Shown in pieces: positions 6,255-63,872 of a stretch of 64,000 bases of DNA. Each line of letters opens with the position of its first letter. Within the stretch, counting starts at the first letter, position 1. The position numbers and the translations under genes are program-made. Where the stretch lies: the NCBI GenBank assembly GCA_037074705.1, contig CM073595.1, positions 26,565,501-26,629,500 on the forward strand, in the 5' to 3' direction. The stretch comes from Zhengitettix transpicula. Lineage: Eukaryota > Arthropoda > Insecta > Orthoptera > Tetrigidae. A model generated the notes under the pieces. It was not told the DNA's origin and made no database searches. It saw only the letters and a list, made by a program, of their open reading frames with translations.

Positions 6255-7264
6255 TATATATATCTCACCATATAAATATTTTGTTTGGCGGCACCAATCT
6301 CAAAGAACGACAGTGACGGCGGGCTTCTTTGTCGCCGAGATTTGGTGGGAACTGCGAGCGTGGGAGCTACGAGTGTGAAAACTGCGAGCGTTGTACGGAT
6401 TTCAGTTGGTGACACTCTGGCGAAGAGAGTTAGTTGGTTGGTGATCGTCGAGGAGAGAGGCGGCTTTGGGGTGATAGGAAAGATCGGTCAAGGAAGTGAA
6501 GAACTCAGTAAAATGGTTCTAAATATTTGATATGCATTGTTAAGCCTTGAAAAAATTACAATGCTGCGGAGATTGAATGTTTAAAAGAATTGAACTCTGT
6601 TATTGGTGTTCGTTACAGTTTATGGAACCTTTATGAATAGACTGGTGACTACGGTCCAACTATTTTGTAATCTGTATATAATTGGGGTCACATTAACACT
6701 GACCTGTTTCCAATGACTGGTGGCCACGGGCGAAACATCTTCGGTCCGTACGAGGGATCCTTTTGTTTGAAGCTGTGAAAATATGGAACCGTGTGTTTTG
6801 TTCAAGTGTAGAGTCTATGAATAATGGCCTTTTTAGTGAAGTGTGTTCCCACGCTCTAACCGTTAAGTCCGGTACCAGAAAGACAGTTGTAAGTACAAGT
6901 CAAAATAATAAATGTGCGTAAACGGTAATTAAGGGTATAGTCAGATTTCGTTTCTGTAATTTCATATTCCGTTAGTGTCAATTTGTTTGAATTGTAAATT
7001 TTCAATTTATTTGTTGATTGTTTCTTACTTATCAAACCCAGTAAAGACCCTGAGAAGAAGAGTTATTTAGATTGATTTGTTTGTAAAATACAAAAGTTTG
7101 TATTTTCTTTAAATGCCACAAATTATAAAAAGAATAACTAATTGATTTGTAAATTTTGATTGAATGTGGTGTACTAAAGTAGGGCAAATAATTTGTACAT
7201 TTAATTAATAAATTTGTTTTAATAATCATTAATTTTTTTAAAATGAACTATTCTTTTATTTATT

Positions 7265-7267
<3 letters not shown>
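6255..7267 (+). repeat. TA-nested LTR-like family, copy 1 (diverged)
   Basis: Contains the family's ordered blocks: GGCGGCACCAA and CTTTGTCGCCGAGAT near the left end, GGCCTTTTTAGTGAA (about 6827), GGTACCAG (6872), the donor-like GTAAGTACA (6889), GTCAGATTTCG (about 6940), CAGTAAAGACCCTGAG (about 7040). It ends with TATTACA at 7267, immediately followed by a TA microsatellite (7268-7312). The left end is eroded and its position is approximate. No protein is encoded; the overlapping small ORFs on both strands are chance frames. Confidence 0.6.
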
Positions 7268-14257: not shown

Positions 14258-14259
14258 GG

Positions 14260-15412: not shown

Positions 15413-16424
15413 TGTAATGATTATAAAACAAAGGTTGGCTTTTATTTAAAAAAATTAATTAATTCGTAAAACAAATTTATTCTTTAAAGGTACACTTTAT
15501 CAGCCTTACTTTGGCACGCCAAAGTGAATCAAATTTACAAACCAAATTTTTTTTAAAATTTTTTTTTATAATTTGTGGCATTCTAGGAAAATACAAACTG
15601 TCCTATTTTATAAACAATTACGTCTAATTTACTCTTCTTCTCAGGGTCTTTACTGGACTTGATAGTAAGAACAATCAAATTTAATAAACTTATTAACAAA
15701 TAAAAAATTTAAATGAACGAAATATAAATTCTAAACACAATAAAGAAAGACGAAATCTAATCACGATAACGAAAAATCTGACTCATACCTTTAATCCTCG
15801 TTTACAGACTTTAAATTGTTGTGTTTGTACTCACGAATGTCTTTCTGGTACCAGATCTGATTCTTGGAGCTTGAGGGCACAACTCACTAAAAATGCCATT
15901 GATCACTGATTATACACCTCATTATTAATACACACGGTAGTTGTTCTCGTTTTTTATTCCACCTGGAATTTGGTGTCAGCCGCTTCCCTCGGTCATCCGT
16001 CGGACGTGTGTCTCCTCGATGCCTTTATGCGAAATGTTATTTCGGTCTGTGTGTTGCAAACCTTTTGCTTCCACTTTGCGATTTTCATAAAATGAGTCTC
16101 TCCGTCAAGAACTATTTACTCGTGTTTTATATAATCTATATAGGTCTCGCAGTTGAACTTCCTGGACCACGCTGTTCGTACTTTTAGATCAGCATCCTCG
16201 TACTCCCGTAATGTTCGTCGTAGCGCTCAGTCAGCCTCGTCTCTCTCTCCAAAATGTTCGCCAGACTTCTTCTGTCTTCTGTCTCGCCAGACTGCTCCCC
16301 GTATGAACGCGCGGTTTCCAACAAAGATTGCCGACAAAGCTTGCCGTGATTGTTGCTTTCAAGAAATTGTACCGCTAACAATCCAATTATTTTAAAACAA
16401 TTAATGGCCTCCTTAATTAGTATT

Positions 16425-16427
<3 letters not shown>
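15413..16427 (-). repeat. TA-nested LTR-like family, copy 2
   Basis: Minus-orientation copy of 1,015 bp with TG...CA ends (TGTAATGATTATAA at left, AGTATTACA at right). The right side abuts a TA run. Read on the minus strand it has the conserved blocks CTGGTACCAG (complement at about 15847), donor-like CGTGAGTACAAAC (about 15830), TCAGATTTCG-like (about 15773), CCAGTAAAGACCCTGAG (complement at about 15645) and TTGGCGTGCCAA (complement at about 15518). ORFs at 16153-16395 and 16184-16381 lie in its GC-rich left half and are not conserved in other copies. Confidence 0.8.
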
Positions 16428-21419: not shown

Positions 21420-21429
21420 AACGTTTCAG

Positions 21430-23017: not shown

Positions 23018-23504
23018 AGTATTAGCTGGATGTCAGCATTGCCCGGGTGGTTATTTATATAAACACGAAAAAGTGGAGTCACTAATATGGCGCGAAAATT
23101 AACTTACATTTTCCGCAAGGATCGTAAATAAATTCCTATTGTTTTTTATTACCATTAGAAGGTATATTTCTGGTTAAAATTATACTTTTTATTCAATTAA
23201 AATATTTCTCCTGTATTTCATTACGCAAAAAGGAACTATTTACTTTGTTTGTCGAGTAGTAACGTCTCTCTCTGTCACGTGACGTCACGGTCTCTTGGCG
23301 CGCAGTAATTTAACACTAAATTATCAACTTTTCAATTTTAATTGTTTCCATATTTATGCTAGGGATTTCTCACCCCCACAGTACCGTTTCTCGTGTTTCT
23401 AAGAATATGTGTACCAAGTTTTGTTGCAATCTGTCCACGCGTTTAAATATCTATAAAGATTAACGTAAATACATACAAATATACATCCCTTTTCATTATA
23501 TAGA
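23018..23504 (+). repeat. Interspersed repeat F1, copy 2
   Basis: Starts ATTAGCTGGATGTCAGCATT followed by GCCCGGGTGG and ends TTTTCATTATATAGAT. Shares TTGGCGCGCAGTAATTTAA, TTTCTCACCCCCACAGTACC and CAATCTGTCCACGCGTTTAA with copies 1 and 3. Shorter than copy 3 by an internal deletion near the left end. Confidence 0.75.
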
Positions 23505-23509
23505 TAATG

Positions 23510-24380
23510 TTAAATATTTATATAATAGAAAATTTTTCATACTGAACAATTTAGATTATACTTAATTTAACTATGTACAATACGGTTTAATTTATAATAA
23601 TCAATAAATTCCCATACAGTGGCTACTCATAAAAATATATTTTCTTGAATTAAATTAATATCCAGGAATTTGTTTAATTTTTTCCTCCACACCTTTTTGT
23701 GCAACTGTTATTTACTTGAAATTTGCATGTTTTTTAATACTTAATTTCCGTACGAAATATATTAATCTTCTTGGTGAATATGGCGACAAAGTTGGTCGAC
23801 GAAACGTATTGTTTAATCAACGCCACCCGCATGAAACCCGATAAAAATGTTGAATGATTAATCTTCAGATTTGATTTTATAAAAAAAAGTAATAATACTT
23901 AATTTGTTTGAATAATCGTTTACTAGATCACTGTGATGGACGGATTTCTATTTTACTTACACTTTGAGAAAAAAAATCAATCATTTTTACTAAAGTGAAA
24001 TAATTAAAATGCGATGTTTTAAACAGAAATTATTGTCCGCAAAGAATTATTTTATGAGATACGGTCAGTACAATTTGTTATCTACATCAGTTCACGGCTA
24101 GAGTTTTCATGCTCAGCAGAATGGAATATCTTAGTAATTAATCTAATGTCTTTCCTTGTACCCATTAAAATAACGCCACGGAACAATATTAAATGAAGAT
24201 ATAATTTTTTTTTTGTAGTTTTCAAATTAAAAATATCTGAATTTTTATTAAATATATAATTATGAAATATGGGCCAGAACGGTCAGAAATTTATTCAATG
24301 AATGAATTAATACTTAAGTATGTTTAATTTTACAATAAAAATTCAAAGGAACGCCAAGTTTCATCCCTTTATTTTGGTAC
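23510..24380. other. No gene seen; AT-rich
   Basis: AT-rich stretch. At about 23780-23806, GGCGACAAAGTTGGTCGACG followed by AAACG looks vaguely like a Penelope tail (GAAACG after a stem), but no other support exists. Confidence 0.35.
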
Positions 24381-26880: not shown

Positions 26881-26929
26881 TTAAAAAAAGTGTAATGAAT
26901 CAAAACATAGTTTATTACTGCAGGACTGA

Positions 26930-29219: not shown

Positions 29220-29965
29220 ATTTTATTATTGCTATATCAGATACCGTAAAACGCGTGTATTTATTTCCGACTAGTTCAGAAGAACAATCTGACCCTACTA
29301 AATCTCATGTTACCTGTTCAATTGATTACAACCCTAATGCCCGTCGAGGACATGCTTTTCGTAAAGAAAGTGCCTTCATCGCCGACTGCTATACAAATTA
29401 TTTCTTTCCGTACCGTCCACCGCGAAAATCACTTGATTAGTAGATCTCCATGGTGATCTGTACCCTCCTCTGATATTTCCAGCCAATCACAATTTCGTCG
29501 CCTTTCAGCTTTTTCTCCCCAATCACGGTTGTCAACCTGGTCCGTGACTTGTGACTAAGTCCTGAGATTAAAGAACCGACACAGCCCGTCGTCAACGAAA
29601 ACAAAATAGCTAGTAAATCTCTCAAACCTTCCAAATATTCATACCATATATTATAAAAACTCTAACATAACGGAATCCGCATCACAACTTCATTGATATT
29701 GATTATAAACTAACTATAAGAAAAATATTTCATGTAGTTTCACACAAACGAAGCGCCATTTGATTAGGTTAAAATAGTGATATTTGATTATAAAATTCGT
29801 CACAATTTTTAGGACTGTCTCTTTCAGCTCAATTAAACCGCACATTTACTGTTAGAATAATGCCATTTATTATTTGTTCCTAAAAAATACCATGGCAAAG
29901 CATTTGACATTATAATTTTATAGTTGTTTTTTTTAGAACGCCAATCTAAAAAAAAGTCAAATAAA
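29220..29965. other. No gene seen; GC-moderate then AT-rich
   Basis: 29240-29640 is GC-moderate with small ORFs on both strands (29255-29440 plus, 29437-29634 minus) and no domain. 29640-29965 is AT-rich. No repeat match in the window. Confidence 0.3.
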
Positions 29966-29967
29966 CC

Positions 29968-30340
29968 TACAGAATAAAAAAAGGATGTATATTTGTATGT
30001 ATGTATTTACGTTATACTTTATACAAATTCAAACACGTGGACATATTGCAACAAAACTTGGTACACATATTATTCAAAGAACAAGAATCTGTACTGTGGG
30101 GATGAGTAACACCTAGCATAAATTTGGAAATAATTATAATTAAAAAACGTGATAATTTACTTTGAAAATACTGCACGCGGACAGGTCGTGACGTCACAGC
30201 AACCGCGAGAGACAGACGTTATAGTTCCTTTTTTAGTAATGAATTAAAGCAAATATATTCTGATTGAATAAAATGGATAATTAAACTCAGCAATACTCTA
30301 TCGAGTGATAATTAAAATCAGTACGAAATGTTATATGATC
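29968..30340 (-). repeat. Interspersed repeat F1, copy 3 (minus, partial)
   Basis: Inverse copy beginning AAAAAAAGGATGTATATTTG. Shared with the copy at 40755: TATTGCAACAAAACTTGGTAC-like text, GTACTGTGGGGATGAG, ATGACGTCAC-like and CGAGAGACAGACGTTA. The 5' half of the element (the CCCGGGT end) is missing. Confidence 0.65.
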
Positions 30341-30344
30341 CTTC

Positions 30345-30745
30345 GAACTAATTTTTTTCAATATAACATGACTTTTAAATGGCTGAGAAAGTTTTTGCCA
30401 AAATAATAAAATAATATTTAAAACAGAACTTGTAATTAAGTTTTACAATCAACTTCTACAATTTGGTAAATAATTCATTAACTAAATTAGGTATTAAAAT
30501 AAGTATCAACGTAACAAGTTCGTTAGTTTCATAACCTTTTTACGAGGTAACTGTATAGAATATAAATAATAATACAAATGCGATAGTGTTACCAACAATC
30601 TGCGGAAAACAATCGTTATATGCTATATTTATAATACCGTCTAAATAATATCCAATAGTATCTAATTTGTAACATAAGGATAATTTAGCACCGAGTCGAC
30701 ATATTTCTAACACGAAGATATTTTTCCTTTGTACAAACTTTAAAT
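30345..30745. other. No gene seen; AT-rich
   Basis: AT-rich, no ORF, no shared repeat recognised. Confidence 0.4.

Positions 30746-33543: not shown

Positions 33544-33594
<51 letters not shown>
33544..33594. repeat. TA microsatellite
   Basis: Uninterrupted TA run abutting the 3' end of TA-nested copy 3. Confidence 0.95.
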
Positions 33595-33597
<3 letters not shown>

Positions 33598-34561
33598 GAT
33601 GATTAAAAAGGTGGTCTTAATTAATAGGAATAATTAACAAAATTATTATGTATTTAAAAATTTATTGTTGATAATGGCACATTATATGCCCTGCTTTGCA
33701 CGCCGAATTCCGTCAATTTAACAAACAAATATTTCAATTTTATTGTATTAATTCGTGGCGTTCTCTGAAAGTATAGCTTTATAATTTTACAATCAATTAC
33801 GTTGAATTTCTCATTATCTCAGGGTCACCACTGGGTTTCATAGGAAGAACAAATACAATGAACTAAAATATTAACAATCCAACTCATTGACGTTAACGGA
33901 ATACAATATTAAATACAAAAGTAAAAGAAAACGAATGAAAAGAAAAACACGAACGAAATCTGACTATACCCTTTAATTATCGTTTACAGTCATTAATAAT
34001 TGTTTTGTACTCATGACAGTGCTACTGGTACCAGTTTGTACTCTTGTATCTTGAAGTCAACACCCACTAAACAGGCCATTATACACTGCTTCTACACTTT
34101 AGATTTGGAACACACGGTAGTTGCTCTGGATCTCTGCTATACTGGAACCTGGATTAGCTCACCCTCAGCCAGTTGCCGGACGTAGATCACCTCAAAGTCG
34201 CTCTATGCGTGAAGCAAAACTTCTGCTTCCAAACTGCGATTTTATAAGTCTCTCCGTCAAAACTGTTTACTTGCGTTTTATGTAAACTATTATATGTCGC
34301 TGTTGGACTTCCTAGATAGCCCTATTCATAATTCTGGATCCGCAGACTTTTACTGTTTTTAATTCTGTATGTGGACCGAACTGCTATGACCCAGTTCTCG
34401 ACGCATACTTTTCGTTTCGCGTCTTGCCGCAGACTGAGTTCTCTAGGCGCGCGGTCTACAGTGTCCATTGTTAACAAAGAAAAACCCGCCTTTAAGCACC
34501 CGTACCGCCAACAATTAAATTATATTAAAAACAATTAATAGCCTGTTTAATTTGTATTACA
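33595..34561 (-). repeat. TA-nested LTR-like family, copy 3
   Basis: 967-bp minus-orientation copy with TGTGATGATT at left and TTGTATTACA at right (TG...CA). Contains the complements of CCCAGT-GTGACCCTGAG (about 33820), TCAGATTTCG (about 33955), TGAGTACAAA (about 34006) and CTGGTACCAG (about 34025), and a TATA-like TTATAAAATC on the minus strand (about 34243). Its 5' end faces that of copy 4 across 11 bp of TA-rich spacer. Confidence 0.8.
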
Positions 34562-34572
34562 ATGTATATATA

Positions 34573-35642
34573 TTGTAATAATTAAAGGCTAATTAAGAGT
34601 TAATAATTATTACTGTTGAACTGGAATTGTTACCGGAAAACATACACAAAGATACAATAATGGACGAGAATATGAACAGGCAAGGTATTGTTGAGACATG
34701 GCGCGCGTGAGTTGGTGGAGTGGACAGGCAACGGTCAAAAACGACGGAGAGTGGACATGTTGGTCGAGAGGATTAAGATATTTAAAAAGTAAAGTTAAGA
34801 GGCACTCAGCAATCAGGAGTGGCCGCATGTGATCGTGTTTGGAAATAGTCGAGAGGATTTAAAATATTGGAAAGCAACCGACAGCGGTTGTTCGTGACTT
34901 AAATCAACGAGACAATTATTAAAAAGTAAAGTCGGACAGCGACAATCCAAATAGTGACTCAGAAAAGTTTCTGAGTGTTACGTCAAATCTATCTTGAGAA
35001 TCGACGAGGTGCCGCCAATAAGGAAAGTCCAACAGTTATAAAGTGTAAATTCAGTGTAAAAATGGCCGGTTCATAATTTGTTTAAAGTGACAGTGTGTTG
35101 CAGAATGTTTTCCAATTTCCCTGGTACCAGAACAAAACAGTGAGCTATAAAACATTTAAATTAAATTGTAAACGTTATATTAATGGTAGAATTTCGTCAG
35201 ATTTCGATTTTTTTTATTAAAATATTTGTCAATATTAAATTAATCATTTAAAAGGGGAATAAATTATTCTTTATTTAAAGGCCCAGAAAAGACCCTGAGT
35301 TCAAGAAAAAATTAAATTGATTGAATGAAATAAAATTTAAAAGGCCGGAGAGTAATTATTTTCATAATTTTGAATTATTTTGATTTATAATAAATCAATT
35401 GTTTGGTCAGTTATATTAAATGTTTTATTCTTGCTCCTTCAGTAGATAATTTTTCATTATACTAATTTCATTTTAATTTATTGTTCATAATTGATCATTA
35501 CATTTACGACGCCTGAACGTGTGGCCATTCTAATCAGTTAATTAATTGTTCTTATAGTTGTGTATTACATTTTTGGCGTGCCAACGTGTAGCGAAATTTT
35601 AATAGTTGTTCCAGTTAATTAAATTATTCTTTATTGATTATT

Positions 35643-35645
<3 letters not shown>
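34573..35645 (+). repeat. TA-nested LTR-like family, copy 4
   Basis: 1,073-bp plus copy, TGTAATAATTAAAGGC to GATTATTACA. Blocks: CTGGTACCAG (about 35123), AGTGAGCTAT donor-like, GTCAGATTTCG (about 35198), CCCAGAAAAGACCCTGAG (about 35281). The 3' end has two successive versions of the terminal motif (ACGCCTGAACGTGTGGCC near 35511 and TGGCGTGCCAACGTGTAGC near 35574), each following a TTACATTT, so the last about 70 bp are tandemly duplicated. Confidence 0.8.
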
Positions 35646-35705
<60 letters not shown>

Positions 35706-35719
35706 ATATATGTATGTAT
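35646..35719. repeat. TA/TG microsatellite
   Basis: TA run followed by TG repeats and TATATGTATG, separating copies 4 and 5. Confidence 0.95.
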
Positions 35720-36785
35720 TGTGGTAATTAAAAGGCAATTATTAATTAATAATTAGAAAATTTGGACTCAAATTGTTAGCGGCAGAAAATACACAAGTTG
35801 CACACAAGAATGTCCAATAATGCCACAGGTTTAAGGTATTTTAGGCTGTTGGATTTTGTTAGAGCGTGGTGTGGCCAGTCTTCGTCGAAGAATTGCAGTG
35901 TAAAGTTGTTATAGAAAGATTTCTGTGGACAGACGAAGAGTAAAATTTTGAGAGAGTCCAGATCCCGGTAGTAGAACAACGAGATCAGTGAGAACAGTTT
36001 TATTATATGTTTCAATCTGCGAAACAAATATCCAAATATTCATCGATAAACATGAGTCCTGAAGTCGAATTATTCTATTCTCAAATTAGACCATTGTTTT
36101 TCAATTGTGGGAGTCCCGGCCACTGTATCCTTCAGAACGAACAAATAATAATTCCCTAACAAACGTTGAACCAACTTTTGTCAAACCAACAGTGATAATT
36201 AGAGTCAGTGTTAACAATGGCCTGTTATAAAGTGCAATGAGTATTGAACGAGCCAAATTGCCCTGATATCCAGAAACTGTAAGTTCCAACTTCACTAAAT
36301 TAATATTTGTAAACCATTGAGTAAAGGTAATAGTCATCAGATTTCGGTTTTAGAATAATTATAATTTAAAGTCAGCATTTTATATTTTTATTGTAAATAA
36401 TACATTGAAGTCGAGAATAGGTTCATAGAAAATTCGATTGTCATCAAATATTTTATTTATTTAATGGCCCAGTAAAGACCCTGAGAGAGAGAGAGATTAA
36501 ATTTTGATTGTAAAACATGAATAAATTATATAAATTGGAAGTTAATTACGTGGTAACTGTTGAAAAAGCATTGGATAACATTTGTAAAATTAACTATTTG
36601 TGCATTAATAAATCAATTTGTTTGTTTATTTAAAATTTTAATTATATATTAAAGCATCCTTTAATTTAATATTTAAATTAATACAAATTGTTGCTCTAAC
36701 GTAGGGATTATTTTAATGTCATTAACTGATTACCACAAATTGACACCCAAACGTGGGTTAACTGTGTTTATTTTATCATTCTTTC
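35720..36785 (+). repeat. TA-nested LTR-like family, copy 5 (3' end lost)
   Basis: Plus copy starting TGTGGTAATTAAAAGGC. Has the donor-like CTGTAAGTTC (about 36277), TCAGATTTCGG (about 36339), GCCCAGTAAAGACCCTGAG (about 36468) and GACACCCAAACGTGGGTTA (about 36751). The usual TTACA end is replaced by an F1 element starting at 36798. Confidence 0.75.
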
Positions 36786-36797
36786 ATATATGTATAA

Positions 36798-37580
36798 ACT
36801 AGCTGGGTGCCGGCGTTGCCCGGGTACTGATTTATATAAACCCGAAAAAGTATTTAGTTGTATATTAATCGTTAGTCGAGAAGTGATCTAACCTAAATAT
36901 AACTGTTCCTAGTTCTGTACATACTTTCGACCGATAGTGCATTAATTGAACAGCTGTGAAATACATTGAATTTTACTCACTCAATCCCAACAAACATTCC
37001 TCCGAATTTCTTTCGAATAGAATACTTAAATATACTCCTTGAGTATTGCAGGATATAATTGTCCCTCAGTCTTCAGACATTACGAAAGATTAAATTGATT
37101 AAATGTTTAGCTAGATTCACAATGTAAACAAATGGTCACCACATTGGTGTCACTAATCTGGCGAGAAAATTAACTTAGATTTTCCGCGAGGACCGTAAAG
37201 AATTTCGTATTGTTTTTTTATCATTCGTTGGAGTATTGCTGGATAAAACTATACTTATTATCTATTGAAAATATTTCTGCTTGATTTCACTACGGGAAAA
37301 GGAACTATTGCCTTTGTTCGTCGCGTAGTAACGACTCTCTTTACCGCGTGACGTCCAGGTATCTTAGCGCGCAGTAATTTAACCCAAAATGATCGCATTT
37401 TTTAATTATAATTCTTTCCACTTTTATGCTAGGGGTTTCTCACCCCCACAGTACCTTATTTCGTGTTTCTAAAAATATGTGTACCAAGTTTCATTTCACT
37501 CTGTCCACGCGTTTAAATTTGTATAGAAATTAATGTAAATACATACATACAAATATACATCCATTTTTATTATATAGATT
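36798..37580 (+). repeat. Interspersed repeat F1, copy 4 (most complete)
   Basis: Starts ACTAGCTGGGTGCCGGCGTT followed by GCCCGGGTA, ends TTTTTATTATATAGATT. About 780 bp; longest F1 copy. Internal blocks: GTCTTCAGACATTACGAAAG-like, ACTATTGCCTTTGTTCGTCG, CGTAGTAACG, GCGCGCAGTAATTTAA, CATACATACAAATATACATC. No ORF. The ends lack obvious terminal inverted repeats; a Helitron-, SINE- or LINE-tail-like nature is undecided. Confidence 0.75.
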
Positions 37581-37584
37581 ATCG

Positions 37585-38700
37585 TCGAATATTCACGTAA
37601 ATGTACTATCGTGACGTACCGCTAGTCACGGTCAGGAATCTTACGACTTTAGCGGCCAATAAAACACAATCGTGTTCAAATACGGTGCCAGTCTAAATCC
37701 CCGCCCTCTCATGTTTCCAACGTGTGTGGCCTTTTGTGATGATGGTTTACGTAACCGATTTTAGTCGAAGACGACGGGGCTCAGTACAGCGGCTGTTAAA
37801 ATGTACGGGTTGAAGCCTACAGCAGGTTTATTTTTCCACTAAAGGGCTATGCGGCGTACTTCGAAACCTCTGAAAACCAGCGGAGAGAGATTTTCCCGTC
37901 TTGGCGAAACGCCAAAAGTCGATGGAGATTCCACCCCAGAGACGACGAAAGACACATTCTGGGGCAATAAGTACGAATGGACAAAAGAAATCGGTCTTTT
38001 TTCCCAACGACAGCGTTACATTATATCCTTGTAATTGTAGTGGCACGGTCATATGTGTAAATCTTGGGGAGCTTAATACACGAAAGTGTTTTGAAGTGAA
38101 TGATGAAACATGTGAAGGAACTATTTTATCCGAAAATTAAATATTAATCCGTTTCACAGAATCTGATTGAAGGCTCAAGCCCATTTCCATCTCAGTTTCG
38201 CATCTCAGATGTACAGTCCCATTAACTCTTCTCTCACGAAACATTGCAGGAGGGGAAAAGAACAGTACTGCCAATATTCCGCGTTGTTGGTCGCCGTCGC
38301 GAGAATTTTTTTTGTCGCGATTGGTGATAATTAACTATCGTTTGCGGAGTGCGCTTCTTAACGATGCAAATGAGTTCTTTGCAAAGCGCTTCTCGATTCC
38401 GAATAATAGGACATAGAGGAGTTAATGGCGCGTCTTCGTGACATAAAATATTGTTTTCTCGGAGGATTAAACAGAGAGAACAATGTTTATGAAATCTTCT
38501 TTTTAGGTGATTTATATTTCAAGTGGTAATAATTAATCTCCTTCTATTTTTCAATATTTCTCGACTTTTCTTTGATTTGAAAGAAATTAAAATTAAGGCG
38601 TAAGAGATGCGTTTTACACCATTTGTACTAAGTCGCATCAAGCGAGACACGTCAGAACAATGATTTAACCAGTTCTTCTAAAAGAAAGCACGTAGAGTTA
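37585..38700. other. No supported gene; GC-richer patch 37600-38350
   Basis: Overlapping frames of 61-79 codons on both strands (37828-38140) with no domain. CpG content is higher than elsewhere. It might be host exon or promoter DNA, but no signal decides this. Confidence 0.3.
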
Positions 38701-40582: not shown

Positions 40583-40754
40583 AACCATACCAATACTTTG
40601 AAATCAATGTAAATATAAAGACAATACGTTTCGTCCGTAATTTGGGATATCGTCACGTGTAAATAATTAATTTTTCTACTACAAATTTCTTCAATGTCTA
40701 AAATTTGAAGATAATATATTTTAACATAAGTCGTGATTTTTGTTACGTTACGTT

Positions 40755-41380
40755 ATCTATACAATAAAAAAGGTTGTATATTTGTATGTATGTAAGTAAT
40801 TACGTTAAACTCTATACATATTTAAACGCTTGAACATATTGCAACAAAAATTGGTACTTCAAAAGCAGAAAACCGGTACTGTGGGGATAAGAAACATGTA
40901 CCATAAAGGTGGAAATAATTATAATTAAAAAAGTGTGTTAAGAAATCATGACGTCACAGCACACGCGAGAGAGACGTTACTACGCGACGATACTGCACAA
41001 TTGATCATTTTTTTCGTAATAAAATAAATCAGAAATATATTGATCGAATAAAAAGTATAATTTTATGCAGAAATACTCCATCGAATGATAATAAAAAAGC
41101 AACAAGATTATACGATCTATGGAACTAATTTTCTTTTAAATGACTGACATGGCACAAATAAGGAACGTACCAAGATTTTGCCCAATTTAGTATGTACCGG
41201 AGGATACATAGAATGATGGTAAAATCAATACCTAATATTTGTTAATCATTATAATTTTAAATGTGGTAAAACTGACGAATTATTTCAAGTCAGATTCTTG
41301 AAAAATTTTGCTCAAGTGTGTGTATTATTATTATTGATTGTAAATGTGTAAACGTGCAACGCTGGACATCCAGCTAGTAT
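40755..41380 (-). repeat. Interspersed repeat F1, copy 5 (minus)
   Basis: Inverse copy from ATCTATACAATAAAAAAGG to CAACGCTGGACATCCAGCTAG, i.e. both family ends are present. Shares GTACTGTGGGGATAAG, GACGTCACAGCACACGCGAG and GACGTTACTACGCGACG with copy 3 and the plus copies. Confidence 0.7.
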
Positions 41381-43239: not shown

Positions 43240-44875
43240 GTATCCAAACACGTTTATGCAATTTCCGATGTGGTAATAGTTTCAATTTTCATCTGAAAAA
43301 TTATCTCACAAAAATATCTATATGATTATTACCACGTTGGTCACAGTGGGTGATTCCGCGGCTGGCTTGTAATTCTGACGAGTGTCTACGTCGATACATA
43401 ATTGTTGATACTCGTACATTATAAATAGTTTCCACACATTATTGATAGAATTGTGTTTTACCAGTGAAAATGTGATGGAAATAACTACCTGTTTTCTCAT
43501 AGTTCTACGATATATGGTATAAATCATCTGGAAAACGGAAAAAGATTCGCCCAACTACACCATACGCTGCCGACGTCTGGTAAGTTACGGCCAGGTGAAA
43601 CATAGAATTTAGGAAAGGAGATAGGAAAGTTTTAAGGGCCAGGATTTGAAATGTATGTAGAACGTAACACTTGAACTAAAAAGTTGAGTTTTATTTAAGA
43701 GCATAGTCACCGTTGTGGTCGAGCGTCGTAGAGTGACGGTCCCGATTTTCCAGAGCTTCCCGAGGAGGGGATATTCCTTTATCCATTTTATCAAATGGTA
43801 ATTAAAAATTTCCACCAAAGGTAAGACATCGTCAGAAATTAACGTCGCGTTGCATTCAGACGCTAGAGGCAGTGGTCGCCACGGGCCATAACATCATTAC
43901 AGTTTCTCATTTATTAAGTTTATGTTTGGGAGTTCTGAGAGTCACTTTATCAGCGAATCAAAAGCCGAGTTATAATCACTTTGATCCGAAGTTGGCTGCA
44001 GTAAAATTACGAGTAGAGATGATAGTGCGCTACAGTTCCTCAACGTTTCAAAGGGAGAAACACGATCCTGGGCTAAGTTAGAGAGATGACACCGAAGCTT
44101 TGAGCGTCCCTTCGACGATTTACACCAACGCTATTTCCGTTACCGTTTCCGCTGTAAAAGCCGAGGGAAATAACGTACAGAACACTCGTATAGTATTTCG
44201 AATGCTGGACATTGTTCTATATAAATAAAACGCTAACATGTCTGTCAGACCGCTTCAACGGAATAAACTCAAAAACGGCTCAATGGACATAAATTACTTG
44301 TGTTAAGATTGGTTATTGAGATTCTCAATTTCATAAATAATTACTTAATTATTATTAATTTTTGATTGATATAAATTTATTTGAATTTAATAACAGAATT
44401 GATGCGACACGATTAAATATTCACCCACATACAAAAAATGCTCACTGTTAAATTAGAAATATCTCAGGGTAAAATGCGAAACAAACTAGAATGAAAATGA
44501 CAATTAAAATGTTTTTAAAGAAATGTAATAAAAGACAACCGCGGTATTTGCTTACGTTAAGTTGAGCCGATGTCATCGGGAAATGGCAAGTGGCGTTTCT
44601 TCTTCTCTTGTCTCCTACAGAAAATCCTCATTCGGAGCATATTTTACGACGTCTTCCTTAATATTCCACTAAACTTTAGCAACACCTTCCTTTGCAGGTT
44701 CGTTTCGATTCGTCGCCATCACAGCTTATTTTGTCTGAAGCCCTGAAATTCTCAACCATCTGGATGAGCATAACAGATATATTTTTGTCTGCATCCAGAC
44801 GGACCTTGCCAAACTCGGTCCTCTCTACGACCGTCCAGTCCGTTTTACAAACAAATTCCTTTCTGTCCCTCAAGC
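43240..44875. other. No supported gene
   Basis: Several 66-78-codon ORFs without domains. 43560-44200 is GC-moderate. Nothing assignable. Confidence 0.3.
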
Positions 44876-44880
44876 AACCA

Positions 44881-45020
44881 CACATCTGTTGACCCTTTCA
44901 GTTCCTCTGCCTAGAGACCACCCGCTGCGTGGTCGAGACAAAAAAACAACCGCACATCTGTTGATCCTTTCAGTTCCTCTGTCCAGTGACCATCCGCTGC
45001 GTGGTCGAGACAAAAAACTG
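44881..45020. repeat. 72-bp tandem repeat, two units
   Basis: Unit 1 starts CACATCTGTTGACCCTTTCA at 44881 and unit 2 CACATCTGTTGATCCTTTCA at 44953. Both contain CCGCTGCGTGGTCGAGACAAA. The period is a multiple of three, so open frames cross it on both strands (103 codons plus, 84 minus), which explains those ORFs without requiring a gene. Confidence 0.85.
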
Positions 45021-47812: not shown

Positions 47813-48792
47813 TGTAATAATTATAAGGAGTAAATGAATTAAACTAGCCAATTTATGTAATAATTAAAAAATGGTCTTAATTAAAACAATTAATTAACAA
47901 AATTATTAAGATTTAAAAATTTATTCTTTAAAAGTACAAATTGTAATCCCTACTTTATACGCCGAATTTCATCAAGTTAACAAACGAATATTTTATTTCA
48001 ATTTTGCAATTCGTGGCGTTCTAGGAAAAATACAACTTTATATTTTACAATCAAATATGTCGAAATTCTCTTTATCTCAGGGTCATTACTGGGTTTGATA
48101 TTCAGAACAATACAATTTAATAAACTAACATTAACAATTCAAACTCATTGAAACTAAATGAAAAGAAATAAACGAACGAAATCTGACTTCTACCTTTAAT
48201 CCTCGTTTACAGATTTTAAATAATTGTTTTGTACTCACGAATGTCTTTCTGGTACCAGATCTGATTCTTGGAGCTTGAGGCCAACATTCACTAAAAAGGC
48301 CATTATTCACTGATTCTACACAATAAAATGTTAATACACTCGGTCGATGTTCTCGTTCTCTGCCACCTGGAACTTTGGATCAGCCGCCCCTCAGTCAGCC
48401 CTCGGACATAGGTCTCCTTGGTGCCTCTATGCGAAATTTAGTTCAGTCTGTGTGAAGCAAAACCTTTTGCTTCCAACTTTGCAATTATTATTTGAGTCTC
48501 TCCGTCAAAACTGTTTACTCGCGTTTTATGTAAACTAATAGATCTCGCAGTTGCACTTCTTGGACCGCGCTATTCTTACTTTTAGATCAGCATCCACATT
48601 TTACGATTTCAGTTCGCGACGAAGACTTTTCTGTTTCGCGTCTCGCCGCAGACTGACTAATTGTTGTACAGAACGCAGTTCACAACAAAGGCTCCGCCGA
48701 CACAGAGTTACCGTCCACTGTCGTTCTTTGGCAACTCGTACCGCTAACAACCAATTTAATTAAAACAATTAATGACCTCTTTAATTGGTATT

Positions 48793-48795
<3 letters not shown>
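47813..48795 (-). repeat. TA-nested LTR-like family, copy 6
   Basis: 983-bp minus copy, TGTAATAATTATAAGG at left and TTGGTATTACA at right, flanked on both sides by TA runs. Complements of CCCAGTAATGACCCTGAG (about 48076), TCAGATTTCG (about 48178), GTGAGTACAAAAC (about 48226) and CTGGTACCAG (about 48250) are all present. Very close in text to copy 2 over the 48200-48780 part. Confidence 0.8.
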
Positions 48796-49930: not shown

Positions 49931-51232
49931 TGTGAACAAAAAGTAAGGTGAATTTATTTGTAAAATATAAATTCTTTATTTATTCTTCCAAATCAATTTC
50001 ATCGCCTTCAAATTAATCCCCGTCCGATAAAACACACTTTTTCAACGCTTTTTCCAGTCCTCGAAACAGTCGTAATAGTCTTTTTCTGGTATAACCTTCA
50101 AGACCTTCTTCGATTCAGTTTTTATCTTCTCAATCGTGTCAAAACGGCGTCCCCACATTGGCCTTTTGAGTTTGCTGAATAGCCAGAAGTCGCACGGAGC
50201 CAAATCAGGCGAATACGGTGGTTGCAGAACGATATGAGTCGATTTTTTGGCAAAAAGTCGCGAAGAAGCAAAGCAGTATGACATGGTGCATTATCGTGAT
50301 GAAGGAACCAACAGTTGTTCGTCCATAATTCCGGCCGTTTCAGACGAATAGCTTCACGCAAAACGACGCATAACGCTCAAATAATATTTTTTGTTGACAG
50401 TTTGGCCCGGCGGAAGGAATTCATAGTGCACCACACCTCGATAATCAAAGAAAACTGTCAACATGACCTTGATTTTCGATCGACTTTGCCGTAGTCTTTT
50501 CGTTCTTGCTTCACCTTTTGCACGATATTCGCTGGATTGGTCGGTGGTTTCAGGGTCGTATGCGTAAATCCAAGTCTCGTCTCCAGTAATGATGCATTTC
50601 AAGTGGTCCTGATAGTCAGACAGCAAAGTTTCACACACATCAACGCGACGCTTTTTCTTCCAAAAAATTGAGCGATTTTGGCACCAATCGAGACTTGACG
50701 CGTTTGAGACACAAAACGTTCTTTAAAATGGTTTGGGCTGAGCCAAATGATATTCCAACACTATCAGCGAGATCTGTAATTGTCCATCGACGATTTTCAA
50801 GCACCAAATCTTTGTTTCTTTGGACGTGGCCTCGTCGGTAGACGTTGATGGTCGTCCAGAGCGCGGTTCGTCCTTAACGCGTTCTCGGCCCTCTTTGAAC
50901 TCGTTGTACCACTTATAAATTTTTTTTTGTGCCATAATTTGATCACCAAAGGCCTTCCGCAACATTTTCAACGTGTCCGCACAAGAATATTCGTTCCGCA
51001 AACAAAATTTGATGCAAGTTCTTTGCCCAACAAAATCACCCATTGCAAAAATCGAAATATTCACTTTTGGTTGTTAACAAAAACACGTGTAATTCGGAGA
51101 TAATTAAACCTTTTAACAAACAGACGCTTGGCAAATATTATAGACAGTCCTACCAACCTAGGGAAAAAATTATTTGCCTTCCTAATACCCGGGGGTTTTT
51201 AATGACAATTTCACCTTACTTTTTTATCACAG
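49931..51232 (-). mobile_element. mariner transposon with terminal inverted repeats
   Basis: About 1.3 kb, the usual mariner length. The terminal inverted repeats are visible: left TGTGAACAAAAAGTAAGGTG (49931) and, on the complement of the right end, TGTGATAAAAAAGTAAGGTG (down from 51232), extending a few bases into GAATTT / GAAATT. TA dinucleotides occur just outside both ends (TATAAT at 49925-49930; GTATAT at 51235-51240), consistent with the TA target of this family, although the exact boundary is blurred. A single transposase ORF, now broken, fills the interior. Confidence 0.85.
50042..51043 (-). pseudogene. mariner transposase (DD34D), frameshifted
   Basis: The start is taken at MGDFVGQRTCIKFCLRNEYS (51043), the first Met that fits mariner length; the longer frame from 51064 adds seven residues. 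In order: helix-turn-helix 1 (LKMLRKAFGD...WYNEFKEGRE), linker RSGRPSTS, then a frameshift near 50720; ITGDETWIYAYDPET with the first catalytic D, then VHYEFLPPGQTVN; a shift near 50360, HHDNAPCHTALLLRDF with the second D; a shift near 50250, LQPPYSPDLAPCDFWLF with the third D 34 residues after the second; ending KDYYDCFEDWKKR. Total about 333 codons, near full length. All three catalytic aspartates persist, but at least three frameshifts make it non-functional. Transposase would bind the terminal repeats in the nucleus and cut and paste at TA. Confidence 0.85.
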
Positions 51233-53859: not shown

Positions 53860-54440
53860 AAAACGCATGTGAAATTAATTTTATTTGTTTTAATAAATTT
53901 TTTATATTTTATATTAATTAAATTTCAGTTCATACTAAATATTAAGAACTGTTATTAAATTTGATAAACTGAAAATTTAATTTCTTGGGTTTAAATTGTA
54001 AAATTTAAAATTCTTTAAATATTTCAAAAGAATATTAAGACATTAAATTGCATTTCGAAGATAAATTCAGTTAATAATGAAAGATCTTCTAGTGGTATAT
54101 TACTTTAATTGGCTCTGAAACGTAATAAATTAAATAATTAAAGGTAAATCTGTTGAATATATTACAATATTATATATAGTTGTGTGTATGGGACAAAGAT
54201 AAATTATTTTTTTTAATTAATCACCATCGTCTGATACTTGTTAATGTGTTTGGATTAATTTTTAAGTGTTTCATTTGCCAGTAAGTAGCAACGGTCGCTG
54301 ATAAATATTGTTTTGCTTGTGATACAGCGTCGTATGCGAGGTACAAGTGATTCAGTGTTCTTAGAAAGTTAATAGCGACCGGCCATTAGACTATAGGACA
54401 ATATTTTATTATGTTGCGAAATCCCCTTCTACAGGACACG
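53860..54440. repeat. 0.55-kb direct repeat, copy A (uninterrupted)
   Basis: Matches 54450-54735 plus 55807-56095. Shared text: ATTTGATAAACTGAAAATTT, AATTCAGTTAATAATGAAAG, TTGTGTGTATGGGACA(A/G)AG, TACAAGTGATTCAGTGTTC and GCGAAATCCCCTTCTACAGG. Tandem duplication of a non-coding stretch. This copy lacks the TA-nested element and provides the empty-site reference. Confidence 0.8.
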
Positions 54441-54764
54441 AATAGTAAAACTTATGCGAAATGAAATTTTATTTGTTATGATAAATTATTTATATTTTAT
54501 AATAATTAAATTACAGTTAATATTTATTTTCGTTGAATATTAAGAATTGTTATAAAATTTGATAAACTGAAAATTTCATTCTTTAAATATTTCGAAAGAA
54601 TATTAAGACGTTATATTGCATTTTTAAGGTAAATTCAGTTAATAATGAAAGATAATAAAATGGTGATTAATTTAAAAAATAATTTATATATATATATATA
54701 GTTGTGTGTATGGGACAGAGATAAATTATTATTAAAATTAATTTATACATATATATATATATAT

Positions 54765-55761
54765 TGTAATACTAATTAGAGGCAATTAGAGAATTGATAA
54801 TTGGAAATTTGTGGTGGATTGTTATCGGCGAGAATATAAACGCAACAATGTACAGGCGGGCTTTGTCGTGCCGAACTGCGGGATTTTACAGGAGGTAGTT
54901 GAGGACAGAAATTCATCCAGTAAAAGTCGCGGGAAGATCTTCATCGAGTAAAGAGTGGGAGGCAAGATTTTATTAAGAGTGGTGTGGCACATAGATTTTC
55001 ATCGAGTAAAGTTCGGACATATAATTCAATAAGTAAAGCAACAGTCAAAATTCAACAAGTGAAGACTGTTGTAAATTTAATCGAGAAGGAGTCGATAACA
55101 ATCTGATTGATCATTAATCAGAACGAGAAATACAATATTTGCTTGAGAGAGAGAGACTTAATGCAGAGGACCACAGGTGTTGTACGGAGTAATCGTTCCA
55201 GTTGATAGATACAAACGTTTTGGACAGTGTTTTGAAACAAAAATTAAATTCTGTAAAATTATGGCCTGTCATATGTGAATAGTGCATCAGAGCCCAAACG
55301 AATGCCTGGTACCAGCAAAGACACTGTAAGTAGAGAGAGAAATTTTATAAAAGTTTTGTAAACGTTAAATAAGGATCGTCAGATTTCGGATTCACGTTCA
55401 TTTTGTTGTCTAACTCTAATATTGTAAAAATTTGATTGTTAATTTGAATGTAAAAGAAAAGGTTGGCTCTTTATTTAAAAGGCCCAAATAAACGACCCTG
55501 AGATGAGAGTAGATTAAATCTGTAAAATAGTAAGAACACGATTGTAAATAAATCACGTCAAGAAATTTTGTTCTTTTACTTTGAATAAACTAATTGTTTT
55601 GTGAAGTTTAAATTTTGTAAATTATTTAGCATCCTTTCGTTTTAAATTTTAATGAAAAAATTAATCTATTAATTAACCATTTAATTAATTATTTAATGTT
55701 GTATACTACATAAATTGGCGTCCTCAACGTGAGGCGAATTCGGTTAACTATGTTGTATACT

Positions 55762-55764
<3 letters not shown>
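54765..55764 (+). repeat. TA-nested LTR-like family, copy 7
   Basis: About 1.0 kb plus copy, TGTAATACTAATTAGAGG to TGTATACTACA, with TA runs on both sides. Blocks: CTGGTACCAG (about 55308), CACTGTAAGTAGAG donor-like (about 55331), GTCAGATTTCG (about 55378), CCCAAATAAACGACCCTGAG (about 55484), TTGGCGTCCTCAACGTGAGG (about 55714). The last about 50 bp are duplicated (ATGTTGTATACTACA twice). The 5' half has degenerate internal repeats of TTCATCGAGTAAAG type (54935-55060). Confidence 0.85.
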
Positions 55765-55765
<1 letters not shown>

Positions 55766-55811
<46 letters not shown>

Positions 55812-55812
55812 T
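55766..55812. repeat. TA microsatellite
   Basis: TA run with TATGTATG ending, at the 3' side of copy 7. Confidence 0.9.
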
Positions 55813-56095
55813 TGTTGTGTGTATGGGACAGAGATAAATTATTTTAAAATCATTCACCCTCGTGTTATAATTGTTAATGTGCTTGGATTATTTTTTCAGT
55901 GTTTCATTTGCCAGTAAATAGCGACGGTTCGAATAAGTCGCTGATAAATATTCTTTTGTTTGTGATACAGCGTCGTGTCCGTGGTACAAGTGATTCAGTG
56001 TTCTTAGAAAGTTAATAGTGACCGGCCGTTAGACTTTAGGACAATATTTTATTAAGTTGCGAAATCCCCTTCTACAGGACGCGAGTAGTTTAATG

Positions 56096-60745: not shown

Positions 60746-60748
<3 letters not shown>

Positions 60749-61702
60749 AATACTAATTAGAGGCCATTAATTGTTTTAATATAATTGGATTGTTAGCGGC
60801 ACATTTCCTTGAAAGCAACAATAACGGCTCTTTGTCGGCGATAGTTGTTGGAAACCGCGCGCTCGTACGGAAGTCCAGTCCGGCAAACGTTTCGAGAGAG
60901 CGATGAGGCTGACCTAAAAAGGACGAATAGCGTGGTTCAGAAAGTTCAACTGCGAGATCTATTAAAATCTATAAAACACAAGTAAATAGTTCTTGACGGA
61001 GAGACTCATGATATAAAATCGCAAAGTGGAAGCAAAAGGTTTTCACCACACAGATGCGAAATAACATTTCGCATAAAAGGCATCGAGGAGACATACGTCC
61101 GAGGGCTGACCGAGGGAGCGGCTGATCCCAAAATTCCAGGTGGAACAACAACGAGAACTACGACCGTGTTTATTAAAAAATGATGTGTAGAATCAGTGAA
61201 CAACGGCCTTTTTAGTGAGTTGTGACTTCAAGCTCCAAGAATCACATCTGGTACCAGAAAGACATTCGTGAGTGCAAATACAATTATTTAAAGTCTGTAA
61301 ACGAGGATTAAAGGTATAAGTCAGATTTCGTTATCTTGTTTAGTTTTCGTTTCTTTATTGTGTTTAGAATTTATATTCCGTTCATTTCAATTTTGATTAG
61401 TTAATTAGTTTATTAATTTGTTTGTTCTTACTATCAAGCCCAGTAAAGACCCTGAGAGAAAGAGTAATTAGATGAAATTGTTGTAAAATTATAAAGTTGT
61501 ATTTTCCTAGAACGCTACAAATAAAATAAAAATATAATATAAAGTATATTTTATAAATTTGAGGAAATTAAATGTGCAAAGTGAAGCTGATAATTTGTGT
61601 CTTTAAAGAATAATTTTTTTTAAATTAAAGCCTTTCAGTTGATCATTACATTTTGGCCCAACAACGTGGAGCAAATTTATTCTTCATTTCTTGTTAATTA
61701 TT

Positions 61703-61705
<3 letters not shown>
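60746..61705 (+). repeat. TA-nested LTR-like family, copy 8 (cleanest)
   Basis: 960-bp plus copy, TGTAATACTAATTAGAGGCC to TTAATTATTACA, TA runs on both sides. GC-rich left third with TTGTTAGCGGCACATTTCC; GACGGAGAGACTCATG followed by TATA-like GATATAAAATCG (about 61011); GGCCTTTTTAGTGAG (61206); CTGGTACCAG (61250); donor-like CGTGAGTGC (61268); TCAGATTTCG (61321); CCCAGTAAAGACCCTGAG (61439); TTTTGGCCCAACAACGTGG (61651). Minus-strand ORFs of 60 and 65 codons inside are not conserved in the other copies. Confidence 0.85.
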
Positions 61706-61739: not shown

Positions 61740-62155
61740 TGACGATCATGAAATAGAATTATTGCTCCGTATCAGACTAGTACCGTTATGAATCCATTAA
61801 TCCTCATTTCCGGGGAAATAATAAAATTCTCAGCGCCGTTGCGTTTGTATGAATCTATATCAATTATAAGTAGCCTAATAGTAGAAAATAACAAAGAGAA
61901 GAAAACAAAAATACGTGAAAAACAAGAAAATTAAAATAATAAACTCAGAAATGTGTAAAATAGATAATTTGGTATTGAGAAAAAAATGAAAGAAAATACA
62001 TAAATAAAAAATATCAACGAATATACAACAATTAACATCTTTAACAGCTACAAAGTATTTTCTCTTACTATCATTTACTAATGAGCTTCCGTCCATATTT
62101 TCTATTGTCATTCTGCTAATATTCTCCAAAGTTATTGAGAAATCAGTACACACGA
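61740..62155. other. No supported gene
   Basis: AT-rich. A 119-codon minus ORF (61875-62234) has a phenylalanine-rich tail due to A-rich plus-strand sequence. Its start overlaps the RT relic on the other strand, so I regard it as chance. Confidence 0.35.
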
Positions 62156-62159
62156 GAAC

Positions 62160-63242
62160 TGCAACTTTTCTCACAAAATTTAAAATTATTTCCACATCAC
62201 AACCTGGTTTCATTAGAGGTAAATCCACCAACACGGCGTCTTACGACTTCGTTCAAAGTATTCATGACGCACTCGGAAAAAAGATTTTAAGTGGTCTGGA
62301 AATCTTTGCTGACCTTTCCAAAGCATTTGATTTAGTAGATCATGATATTTTACTCCGAAAATTTGATTTCTATTGAAGTAGAGGATTTTCCCATTTCCTT
62401 ATTTCGATCTTACTTGTAAAATACGCGCCAAAAAGTTTCGATTGGAAATGAGTATTTGTCTAGTGCTACATAAATAATTCGTTCCGTTTACGGCATATAA
62501 ATTGAAGTTTCTCCACACAAACTTTAAAATTTCTAGAATATACGTACAGCGAAATGTTAAAATGTCAAGATTCCGTAACAAAGGCTTCAACTGCCATTAG
62601 CATGGCTTCGGTGTCCCCCAGGGCTCACTTTTGGGACCTTTACATTTCATTAAATATATTAAGGATTTATCGAATTATTTAGATCCCTTAAAATCAGTCG
62701 TTTACGCTGACGGCACAAAATTTAGTAATCACGGGCTCGGAAACGTTGCGTGAGAAAGTAGATATTGCGAAGAGTCGTTTCAATCTGTGCTTCACTGCGA
62801 ACAAATTTTCTCTTAATATAGTGAAAATTAAAATCGTTACCTTGACTTCAAACACAAACATTTTAAATGGTATATCACGCATATTTTCATTCTGTCATGT
62901 CTTACGACTGGGGTCGATCACATCACGCGTTTCAAATTTTTGAACTGTCACACAGGGCCGTACGAACCTTGACAGTTTAACATTGCGCTGTACGTATATT
63001 CTAGAAATTTTAAAGTTTGTGTGGAGAAACTTCAATTTATATGCCCTAAACGGAGCGAATCATTTAAGTAGCACTAGAAATCGCTCTCAACTCCGCATAG
63101 AAAAACATCCCCTAAGCATTCGTTATTCCGGGATAAATCTATAAAATAGTCTTCCAGACGCAATAAATACTTTAACTATACAAAATTTATTTATAAAGAG
63201 TTGCAAATCTTTGTTTATTAATGAAGCATATTACTCAATCTT
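62160..63242 (+). pseudogene. CR1/jockey-like LINE RT relic with internal inverted duplication
   Basis: Plus strand: TSQPGFIRGKSTNTASYDFV (RT motif 2), GLEIFADLSKAFDLVDHDILL (motif A aspartate; 62305-62355), then decayed text, GFGVPQGSLLGPLHFIKYI (motif B, 62606-62660), VVYADGTKFS (YADD box with the second D changed to G, 62698), and after several stops a C-terminal module TRNRSQLRIEKHP...IRYSGINL*NSLPDAIN ending IL* at 63243. Multiple stops and frameshifts. Between motifs A and B, 62462-62569 is an inverted copy of 62968-63075 from the C-terminal module. Confidence 0.7.
62462..63075. repeat. 108-bp inverted duplication inside the LINE relic
   Basis: 62462-62569 is the reverse complement of 62968-63075 with 6 mismatches in 108 positions and no gap by my count. 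The right-hand member is in its natural place in the LINE C-terminal region, so the left-hand member is the inverted, transposed copy. Confidence 0.85.
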
Positions 63243-63872
63243 ATAGACGTATTTACAGGAAAGTGCTTCGTAGCTGCTAAGAAATTACGAACATCGGAGT
63301 ATATAGTAAACTCAAATAACAAAATAAAAGCAACTTGGGAGATAATTAAAAATATCTCAGTTAAAGTCAATTATAACGCGACAGATATAAAGCTTGTCGG
63401 TGACGGTCAAACTTTCACCAACAGAGACGCTGCGGGTATATTTAATTCATATTTTGTTCACGTATCGGAACAGTTTTCAAACAATAAGTCAACAGAAGGT
63501 CGTGCTTTTTATGAACTGCTACAAAACGCCGTACCGAGTGTTCAGAATTCCATTTTCCTTCAACCTGTTACCAACATCGAAATAATAAACGTAATAAGAA
63601 AGTTAAAATGTACCCAATCAGCGGATATATATGGCAACTCAAGCAAAGTTGTGAATCACTGTGCTACTCCCCTTCAAATCATATTCAACGCGTGTCTTTC
63701 TACCGACATTTTTCCCGACTCCCTTAAAGCTGCAAAAGTTATTCCGATCTTCAAGAAGGGTTCGCCCACCGACGCATCAAATTACAGACCGATTTCCCTA
63801 CTTCCGATATTTTCAAAAATACTAGAAAAAATTCTACACAAAAAGTTACTTGAATTTATGGTGCGCCTTTAG
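63243..63872 (+). pseudogene. LINE RT N-terminal fragment (second copy, open frame)
   Basis: A frame open from 63225 to TAG at 63870-63872 reads AAKKLRTSEYIVNSNNKIKA, TWEIIKNISVK, then FNSYFVHVSEQFSNN (endonuclease-RT linker), VTNIEIINVIRKLKCTQSAD (RT motif 0), IFPDSLKAAKVIPIFKKGSP, SNYRPISLLPIFSKILEKIL (RT motif 1). It ends before motif 2. The RT clade looks like that of 62160-63242, and the order (C-terminal piece followed by N-terminal piece) means these are two separate insertions or a rearranged element. No ATG starts the frame where the family ORF would. Confidence 0.75.

Follow-up and report, generated by a model that had tools for sequence, protein, structure and literature searches.

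At which point does the long terminal repeat (LTR) of a retroelement end? Minus-strand DNA synthesis begins at a tRNA on the primer binding site (PBS), so that the sequence directly before the PBS becomes the 3' end of the LTR, and the boundary between LTR and PBS is taken to be a constant reference point in retroelements. The question is raised by a stretch of 64,000 nucleotides from Zhengitettix transpicula (contig CM073595.1), here called the window, which holds eight copies of a repeat with LTR-like ends and a PBS-like motif, TGGCG...ACGTGG, near but inside the 3' end. The preliminary description of the window was uneasy about the position of this motif, and the unease was justified because the internal PBS marks an LTR end that is still used by other copies. 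Sister LTRs from the same genome end at different rungs of a ladder, at an ATTACA that is decayed in some cases and beside TA-rich DNA, and units made up of a PBS and a further end of the 5' unique region (U5) of the LTR are found inside many of the older LTRs, both singly and in tandem. The reading that we favour, with a probability of about 0.62, is that the copies are solo LTRs of a tRNA-primed family whose RNA carried PBSs in tandem, and that the PBS used for priming set the end of the LTR.

The family and its target site

Pairwise comparison within the window shows that the eight copies (Table 1) are all present, as had been proposed, and mutually similar far above chance. Copies 60746-61705 and 15413-16427, for example, share 79.8% identity across 973 nt (E = 0). 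Even the weakest copy, 54765-55764, matches others at an E of about 1e-14. They are solo LTRs of an abundant LTR-retrotransposon family, because no partner LTR was seen to enclose an internal region with any of them, and no gag-pol accompanies them, in agreement with the preliminary description. An Rfam scan of the window gave no matches at the gathering threshold. The shared order of motifs is not found as plainly stated there; it appears once the three copies on the minus strand (15413, 33595 and 47813) are reversed. The TG and CA ends need similar adjustment: the 5' end is not preserved in copy 1 (6255), the 3' end of copy 5 (35720) is damaged and does not read CA, and the TG of copy 4 is at 34574 instead of 34573. 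TA-rich DNA adjoins at least one side of all eight copies.

In the 993.6-Mb assembly of 337 contigs, the family 18-mer CCCAGTAAAGACCCTGAG has 2,912 exact matches (1,475 on the plus and 1,437 on the minus strand). The reversed 18-mer, used as a control, has none in the same assembly, and viral contigs contain no match to the family 18-mer. The sample analysed below comprises 68 copies in 60 loci (L009-L068), taken from the first 100 of the 2,912 places listed; it covers part of one contig (C1), was picked by an exact motif and is non-random. Loci L001-L008 overlap some of the sampled places and were excluded from the counts. The LTR is 726-1253 nt long in the 37 copies with both ends located.

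Same-strand pairs of the 18-mer are found in six loci (L009-L014). Of these, L009, L011 and L012 are complete LTR elements, whereas the pairs in L010, L013 and L014 do not represent paired LTRs of this kind. The two LTRs start with TGTAG, end with ATTACA and are 98.4% identical in L009 (799 nt), 99.0% in L011 (888 nt) and 99.9% in L012 (695 nt), and the flanks carry 4-bp duplications (ATAC, ATAT and ATAT, respectively). A PBS (TGGCGC...ACGTG) is located three bases past the 5' LTR. The PBS of L009 is TGGCGCCCAACGTGGGGC, which is labelled Lys1,2 in a table of PMC1084362, and those of L011 and L012 are variants that differ from it. Upstream of the 3' LTR all three have GGAATTTGGGGCGTAA, which is G-rich with no pure purine run. 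The LTRs are 3.3-3.6 kb apart and enclose a single open reading frame (ORF) of 348, 448 and 362 amino acids, respectively. No pol was found among these ORFs, Pfam giving only matches below the curated cut-offs, and a protein search with the ORF of L011 had 0 of 7,996 scored candidates reaching E 1e-3. The earlier suggestions of an LTR and of a PBS are thereby supported, and the check for copies flanking gag-pol has a divided outcome in that LTR pairs exist but have one ORF and no pol between them.

The terminus is followed by RTAY in 54 of the 68 copies (ATAT 47, ATAC 4, GTAT 3), and the start is flanked by the identical 4-mer in 37 of these 54 (ATAT 34, ATAC 2, GTAT 1), with L009 (ATAC) besides; the search required identical 4-mers, thus the weight lies on the three non-ATAT cases and on L009. 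A test free of the RTAY assumption took the first downstream ATTACA in all 68 copies. Next to it came RTAY in 49, a PBS-like TGG in nine and other sequence in five, and five had no ATTACA, compared with RTAY after 84 of 578 ATTACA in the background. The target is therefore a 4-bp RTAY, mostly ATAT, with a strong preference for TA repeats, and the prevalence of ATAT would explain why the family is so often located in them. The counts support a preference over the background but not the strict rule that had been suggested: the TA runs flanking the copies vary between 0 and 54 nt, and some copies, including the complete element in L009, are in short non-repeat sites. An expansion of the TA repeats from the target duplication after insertion is disfavoured because TA flanks are longer in the 'young' group, where their summed length has a median of 31 nt (n = 29), than in the other group, where it is 15.5 nt (n = 8), with the reservation that the rule for this grouping is crude and L034 probably misassigned.

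The family is a non-autonomous LTR retrotransposon and belongs to an already known kind. Terminal-repeat retrotransposons in miniature (TRIMs) have very short LTRs and a non-coding interior, and the TRIM-like classification first proposed was rejected because the LTRs are too long and the complete elements contain an ORF of 348-448 amino acids. A Helenus-type TRIM was rejected because a tRNA-like sequence in the LTR is absent (ARAGORN, 0 in 62 sequences). Ginger-like and other DNA transposons with TG...CA ends have terminal inverted repeats and a transposase but lack both a direct LTR pair and a PBS; they were rejected because direct LTR pairs with an adjacent PBS are present in L009, L011 and L012. 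Mobilisation is probably by a Gypsy-type element or integrase, since there is a 4-bp target duplication and the target is RTAY, above all ATAT.

Primer binding sites inside LTRs and sister LTRs with different ends

Within the window, the motif is found in seven of the eight copies at no more than 6 edits, a limit at which about 1.85 matches arise by chance per shuffled 20 kb on one strand. It lies 29-93 nt inside the 3' end, not 40-110 bp as first noted, and it does not extend to every copy: the match in copy 5 is weak (6 edits) and copy 6 has none within the limit.

A PBS unit comprises the PBS and about 34 nt of U5 end. A profile made from 28 such units found 50 matches at E <= 1e-3 in 319 kb, including all 28 seeds. 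A terminus, ACA followed by RTAY, is reached within 130 nt by 26 of the 50 units (24-95 nt off), another 12 reach a further unit and 12 reach neither; for the 22 non-seed matches the corresponding numbers are 12, 5 and 5. By the same pattern, a terminus is within reach of 203 out of 5,000 length-weighted random positions (236 out of 5,000 in an earlier control that was slightly narrower and unweighted). Three of the units reaching neither are the normal outside PBSs of L009, L011 and L012, and several others look like decayed termini. Counted by copy, a unit match is found downstream in 15 of the 68, and subtracting the three normal outside PBSs leaves 12 of 68 with an internal unit.

The number of PBSs in the arrays was read from the printed sequence, and some of the motifs are below the 1e-3 cut-off. 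In L041, five U5 ends alternate with four PBS motifs, and two of the U5 ends share 39 identical nt, a length attained by 0 of 300 shuffles. Four PBSs were counted in L058, three per strand in L031, three in L064 and two each in L024, L053, L054, copy 4 of the window and two places in L063. The PBS is more conserved than its flanks, with 93% identity versus 79% and 79% in five sequences and 100% versus 69% and 57% in three. L053 (2140-2868), where two PBS units are followed by about 640 nt without match to other loci and then by ATTACA and (AT)n, was considered as a possible complete array-bearing element, a lead that came to nothing. The unmatched stretch after the units might be captured or inserted sequence.

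The stretch preceding each internal PBS was used to compare LTRs, and the clearest sets were aligned. Copy 1 stops at ATTACA, and L013 (88.6% identical over 399 nt) runs on with TTTTGGCTTCCACAACGTGGGGC and another U5 end. In the same manner L042 (near 478) stops where L014 (87.2% over 400) runs on, L023 stops where L019 (82.7% over 1,051 nt) runs on, and copy 3 stops where L020 (88.8% over 400) runs on into a PBS. L063 (near 3568, minus strand) stops where L058 (89.6% over 400) adds two more units, and L042 (near 3861), 81.3% identical to L058, stops one rung earlier than L063. Arranged as the ladder of one clade, copy 3 is on rung 0, L020, L042 and L067 on rung 1, L063 on rung 2 and L058 on rung 4. 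The identity between sister LTRs with different ends is 81-91%.

A tree of 13 LTRs, based on the region preceding rung 0, interleaves the different rungs. Copy 1 is paired with L013 (support 1.0), copy 3 with L020 (0.879), L063 with L058 (0.947) and L024 with L014 (0.863), the last pair beside L042. In L042, L063, L058 and L067 the upstream PBS has no TGG and instead reads TGACG or CGACG.

What may have moved the LTR end

The RNA of the older lineages may have had tandem primer sites in the order R-U5-X0-PBS-X1-PBS'-leader, and the PBS primed by the tRNA would set the 3' end of the LTR. Priming at the upstream PBS would give a short LTR ending at X0, and priming at PBS' a longer LTR ending at X1 with the upstream PBS trapped inside. 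Because the 5' part of the RNA would be the same whichever PBS is primed, the LTR end could alternate between generations, which fits the interleaving of rungs on the tree. A loss of TGG in the upstream PBS, as in the four loci mentioned above, would fix the longer form. New units might be generated by template switching of the reverse transcriptase between repeated PBSs. Multiple PBSs have been found in isolates of human immunodeficiency virus type 1 (HIV-1) that had been made to use other primers (PMC1084362).

Several observations weigh against this reading. In the 60-locus sample, a PBS-bearing LTR was never found as part of a complete element, the three complete elements each have a single PBS outside the LTR, and an internal unit is absent from all 35 terminus-bearing copies in the 'young' group of the crude rule. 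The termini of L020 and L067 are decayed, and any single step may be a gain or a loss. Several spacer pairs in L058, L031 and L064 are not clearly above shuffles. The conservation of the PBS comes from two sets, of five and three sequences, whose choice depended partly on this motif, and equal or higher conservation is reached by 6 of 309 and 11 of 276 windows of the same size. PBS variants of 19-20 nt are numerous and do not match what we take to be the 3' end of a tRNA, and ARAGORN gave no host tRNA genes for comparison (0 tRNAs in 62 sequences). As to the mobilising element, we infer its Gypsy identity, and the three complete elements contain no pol.

Complete elements could alternatively have collapsed by internal deletion into a 5' LTR and a PBS joined to the final tens of bases of a 3' LTR, so that the position of the PBS inside the LTR would be an illusion. 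Copies with a single unit (copies 7 and 8 of the window, L014 and L019) have this layout, but we find the explanation unlikely because units also occur in tandem, with four PBSs in L041 and L058 and three per strand in L031, and because units are common to independent insertions such as L013, L014 and L068. Deletion would further require breakpoints to recur at a point just short of the final tens of bases of the LTR.

The different ends of sister LTRs could also stem from changes of array length in genomic DNA, by slippage or unequal recombination, with no part for primer choice; this is a somewhat poorer candidate still. It agrees with units that are short tandem repeats and with the two identical U5 ends in L041. 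However, no PBS ever comes after the outermost unit, which borders on target DNA, copies on different rungs end at a proper terminus beside TA-rich DNA, and slippage offers no reason for the change to occur exactly at the outer boundary in several pairs. The least likely explanation is that the internal motif is no primer site but some other conserved feature, for instance a hairpin or a packaging signal, that was duplicated together with the U5 end: imperfect hairpins can be seen by eye in some variants (CTCCA-ACG-TGGAG and CCTCA-ACG-TGAGG) and many variants have no exact fit to a tRNA 3' end, but the motif occupies the obligatory PBS position in L009, L011 and L012, the motif of L009 and one of L041 are the published Lys1,2 PBS (PMC1084362), and the ATTACA preceding internal motifs is the true end of sister LTRs.

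Under the favoured reading of tandem primer sites, it is the PBS ladder that is unusual and not the family itself, which is of a known kind. A wider proposal, made tentatively and with more doubt than belief, is that the LTR boundary is unfixed, that a PBS array lets the priming tRNA choose the LTR end in each round, and that the trapped sites are a fossil ladder of past primer use and may be an intermediate in the change of tRNA primer. If true, the boundary would be mobile, and the primer site used could be read from the record left behind. The detailed mechanism of tRNA primer change in LTR retrotransposons is described as unknown in PMC10886601. Tandem diverging PBSs would be a natural intermediate of such a change, which this family may show, and would make the question testable from genome sequence. 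Methods that place the end of an LTR by the adjacent PBS could be misled. No description of a PBS inside an LTR or of a ladder of LTR ends was recognised among the papers listed by literature searches, a weak test in that 'PBS' mostly stands for phosphate-buffered saline.

Features of the window and comparison with known systems

Table 1. Solo LTRs and PBS-like motifs in the window (positions of the 64,000-nucleotide stretch)
Feature	Position	Strand	Remarks
Copy 1, solo LTR	6255..7267	+	5' end not preserved; 3' end ATTACA then (AT)n
PBS-like motif in copy 1	7167..7185	+	decayed, 5 edits, 82 nt from 3' end
Copy 2, solo LTR	15413..16427	-	3' end at 15413
PBS-like motif in copy 2	15503..15521	-	3 edits, 90 nt from 3' end
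Copy 3, solo LTR	33595..34561	-	3' end at 33595, within (TA)25
PBS-like motif in copy 3	33688..33706	-	decayed, 5 edits
Copy 4, solo LTR, two tandem PBS-like motifs	34574..35645	+	
First PBS-like motif of copy 4, with preceding ACA	35500..35524	+	
Second PBS-like motif of copy 4	35574..35592	+	2 edits, 53 nt from 3' end
Copy 5, solo LTR, damaged 3' end	35720..36785	+	
Weak PBS-unit match in copy 5	36722..36757	+	E = 0.017, fails 1e-3 cut-off
Copy 6, solo LTR	47813..48795	-	3' end at 47813
Weak partial PBS unit in copy 6, U5 end and TTGGC only	47847..47882	-	E = 0.036, fails 1e-3 cut-off
Copy 7, solo LTR	54765..55764	+	
PBS-like motif in copy 7	55716..55735	+	3 edits, 29 nt from 3' end
Copy 8, solo LTR, TG...ATTACA	60746..61705	+	flanked by TA repeats on both sides
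PBS-like motif in copy 8	61654..61672	+	5 edits, 33 nt from 3' end

Copies 3, 4 and 5 are consecutive in what appears to be a single former TA tract (33544-36785), spaced only by short TA-rich or TG-rich DNA, with a gap of about 12 bp between copies 3 and 4, which are arranged head to head. Copy 7 is flanked by 85% direct repeats (54157-54446 and 55791-56089) and is apparently inside an older repeat array. The window also contains five copies of a second dispersed repeat of about 400-570 bp, 71-83% identical (13722-14263, 23074-23525, 29964-30419, 37016-37600 and 40750-41148), and a 72-bp tandem repeat in two copies with 91% matches (44875-45017). Remains of other elements (20052-21425, 26911-29090, 50354-51073 and 62008-63872) include GIY-YIG with reverse transcriptase, presumably Penelope-like, a non-LTR element endonuclease and reverse transcriptase, a mariner-type transposase and another reverse transcriptase.

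Outside the window, locus L069 (1147-2644) has a different small LTR-type element, in which 161-nt direct repeats with 96.9% identity are separated by 1.3 kb, ATTACATAAA is followed by a PBS-like TGGCTTCCAACTGTGGGC, and an ORF has 352 amino acids. An ORF in L047 (3452-4000), about 1.3 kb from a family LTR, contains VWFKNRRAKCRQQ, which we take to be the end of an Otx-type homeodomain.

The target site has a counterpart among the errantiviruses and related Gypsy-group LTR retrotransposons of Drosophila: three subgroups of errantiviruses have the frequent palindromic targets TATA, CGCG and ATAT (PMC5408687). Of these targets it is ATAT that prevails here, with a 4-bp duplication; neither pol nor env was seen in this family. 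A PBS inside the LTR, a feature here, is unmentioned for errantiviruses in the available part of PMC5408687.

Helenus-group TRIMs of animals are non-autonomous, with a PBS, a polypurine tract, a 4-bp target duplication and tRNA-Lys among the primers, and are thought to be moved by Gypsy elements (PMC10886601). The present family is likewise non-autonomous with a PBS, a 4-bp duplication and, in L009, a primer site of tRNA-Lys type, but has longer LTRs and an ORF of 348-448 amino acids inside. As in HIV-1 with an altered PBS, the retroelement RNA would carry more than one PBS, arising upon a change of primer; the HIV-1 cases are laboratory isolates, and neither a PBS trapped in the LTR nor a natural ladder of LTR ends is described in the available part of PMC1084362.
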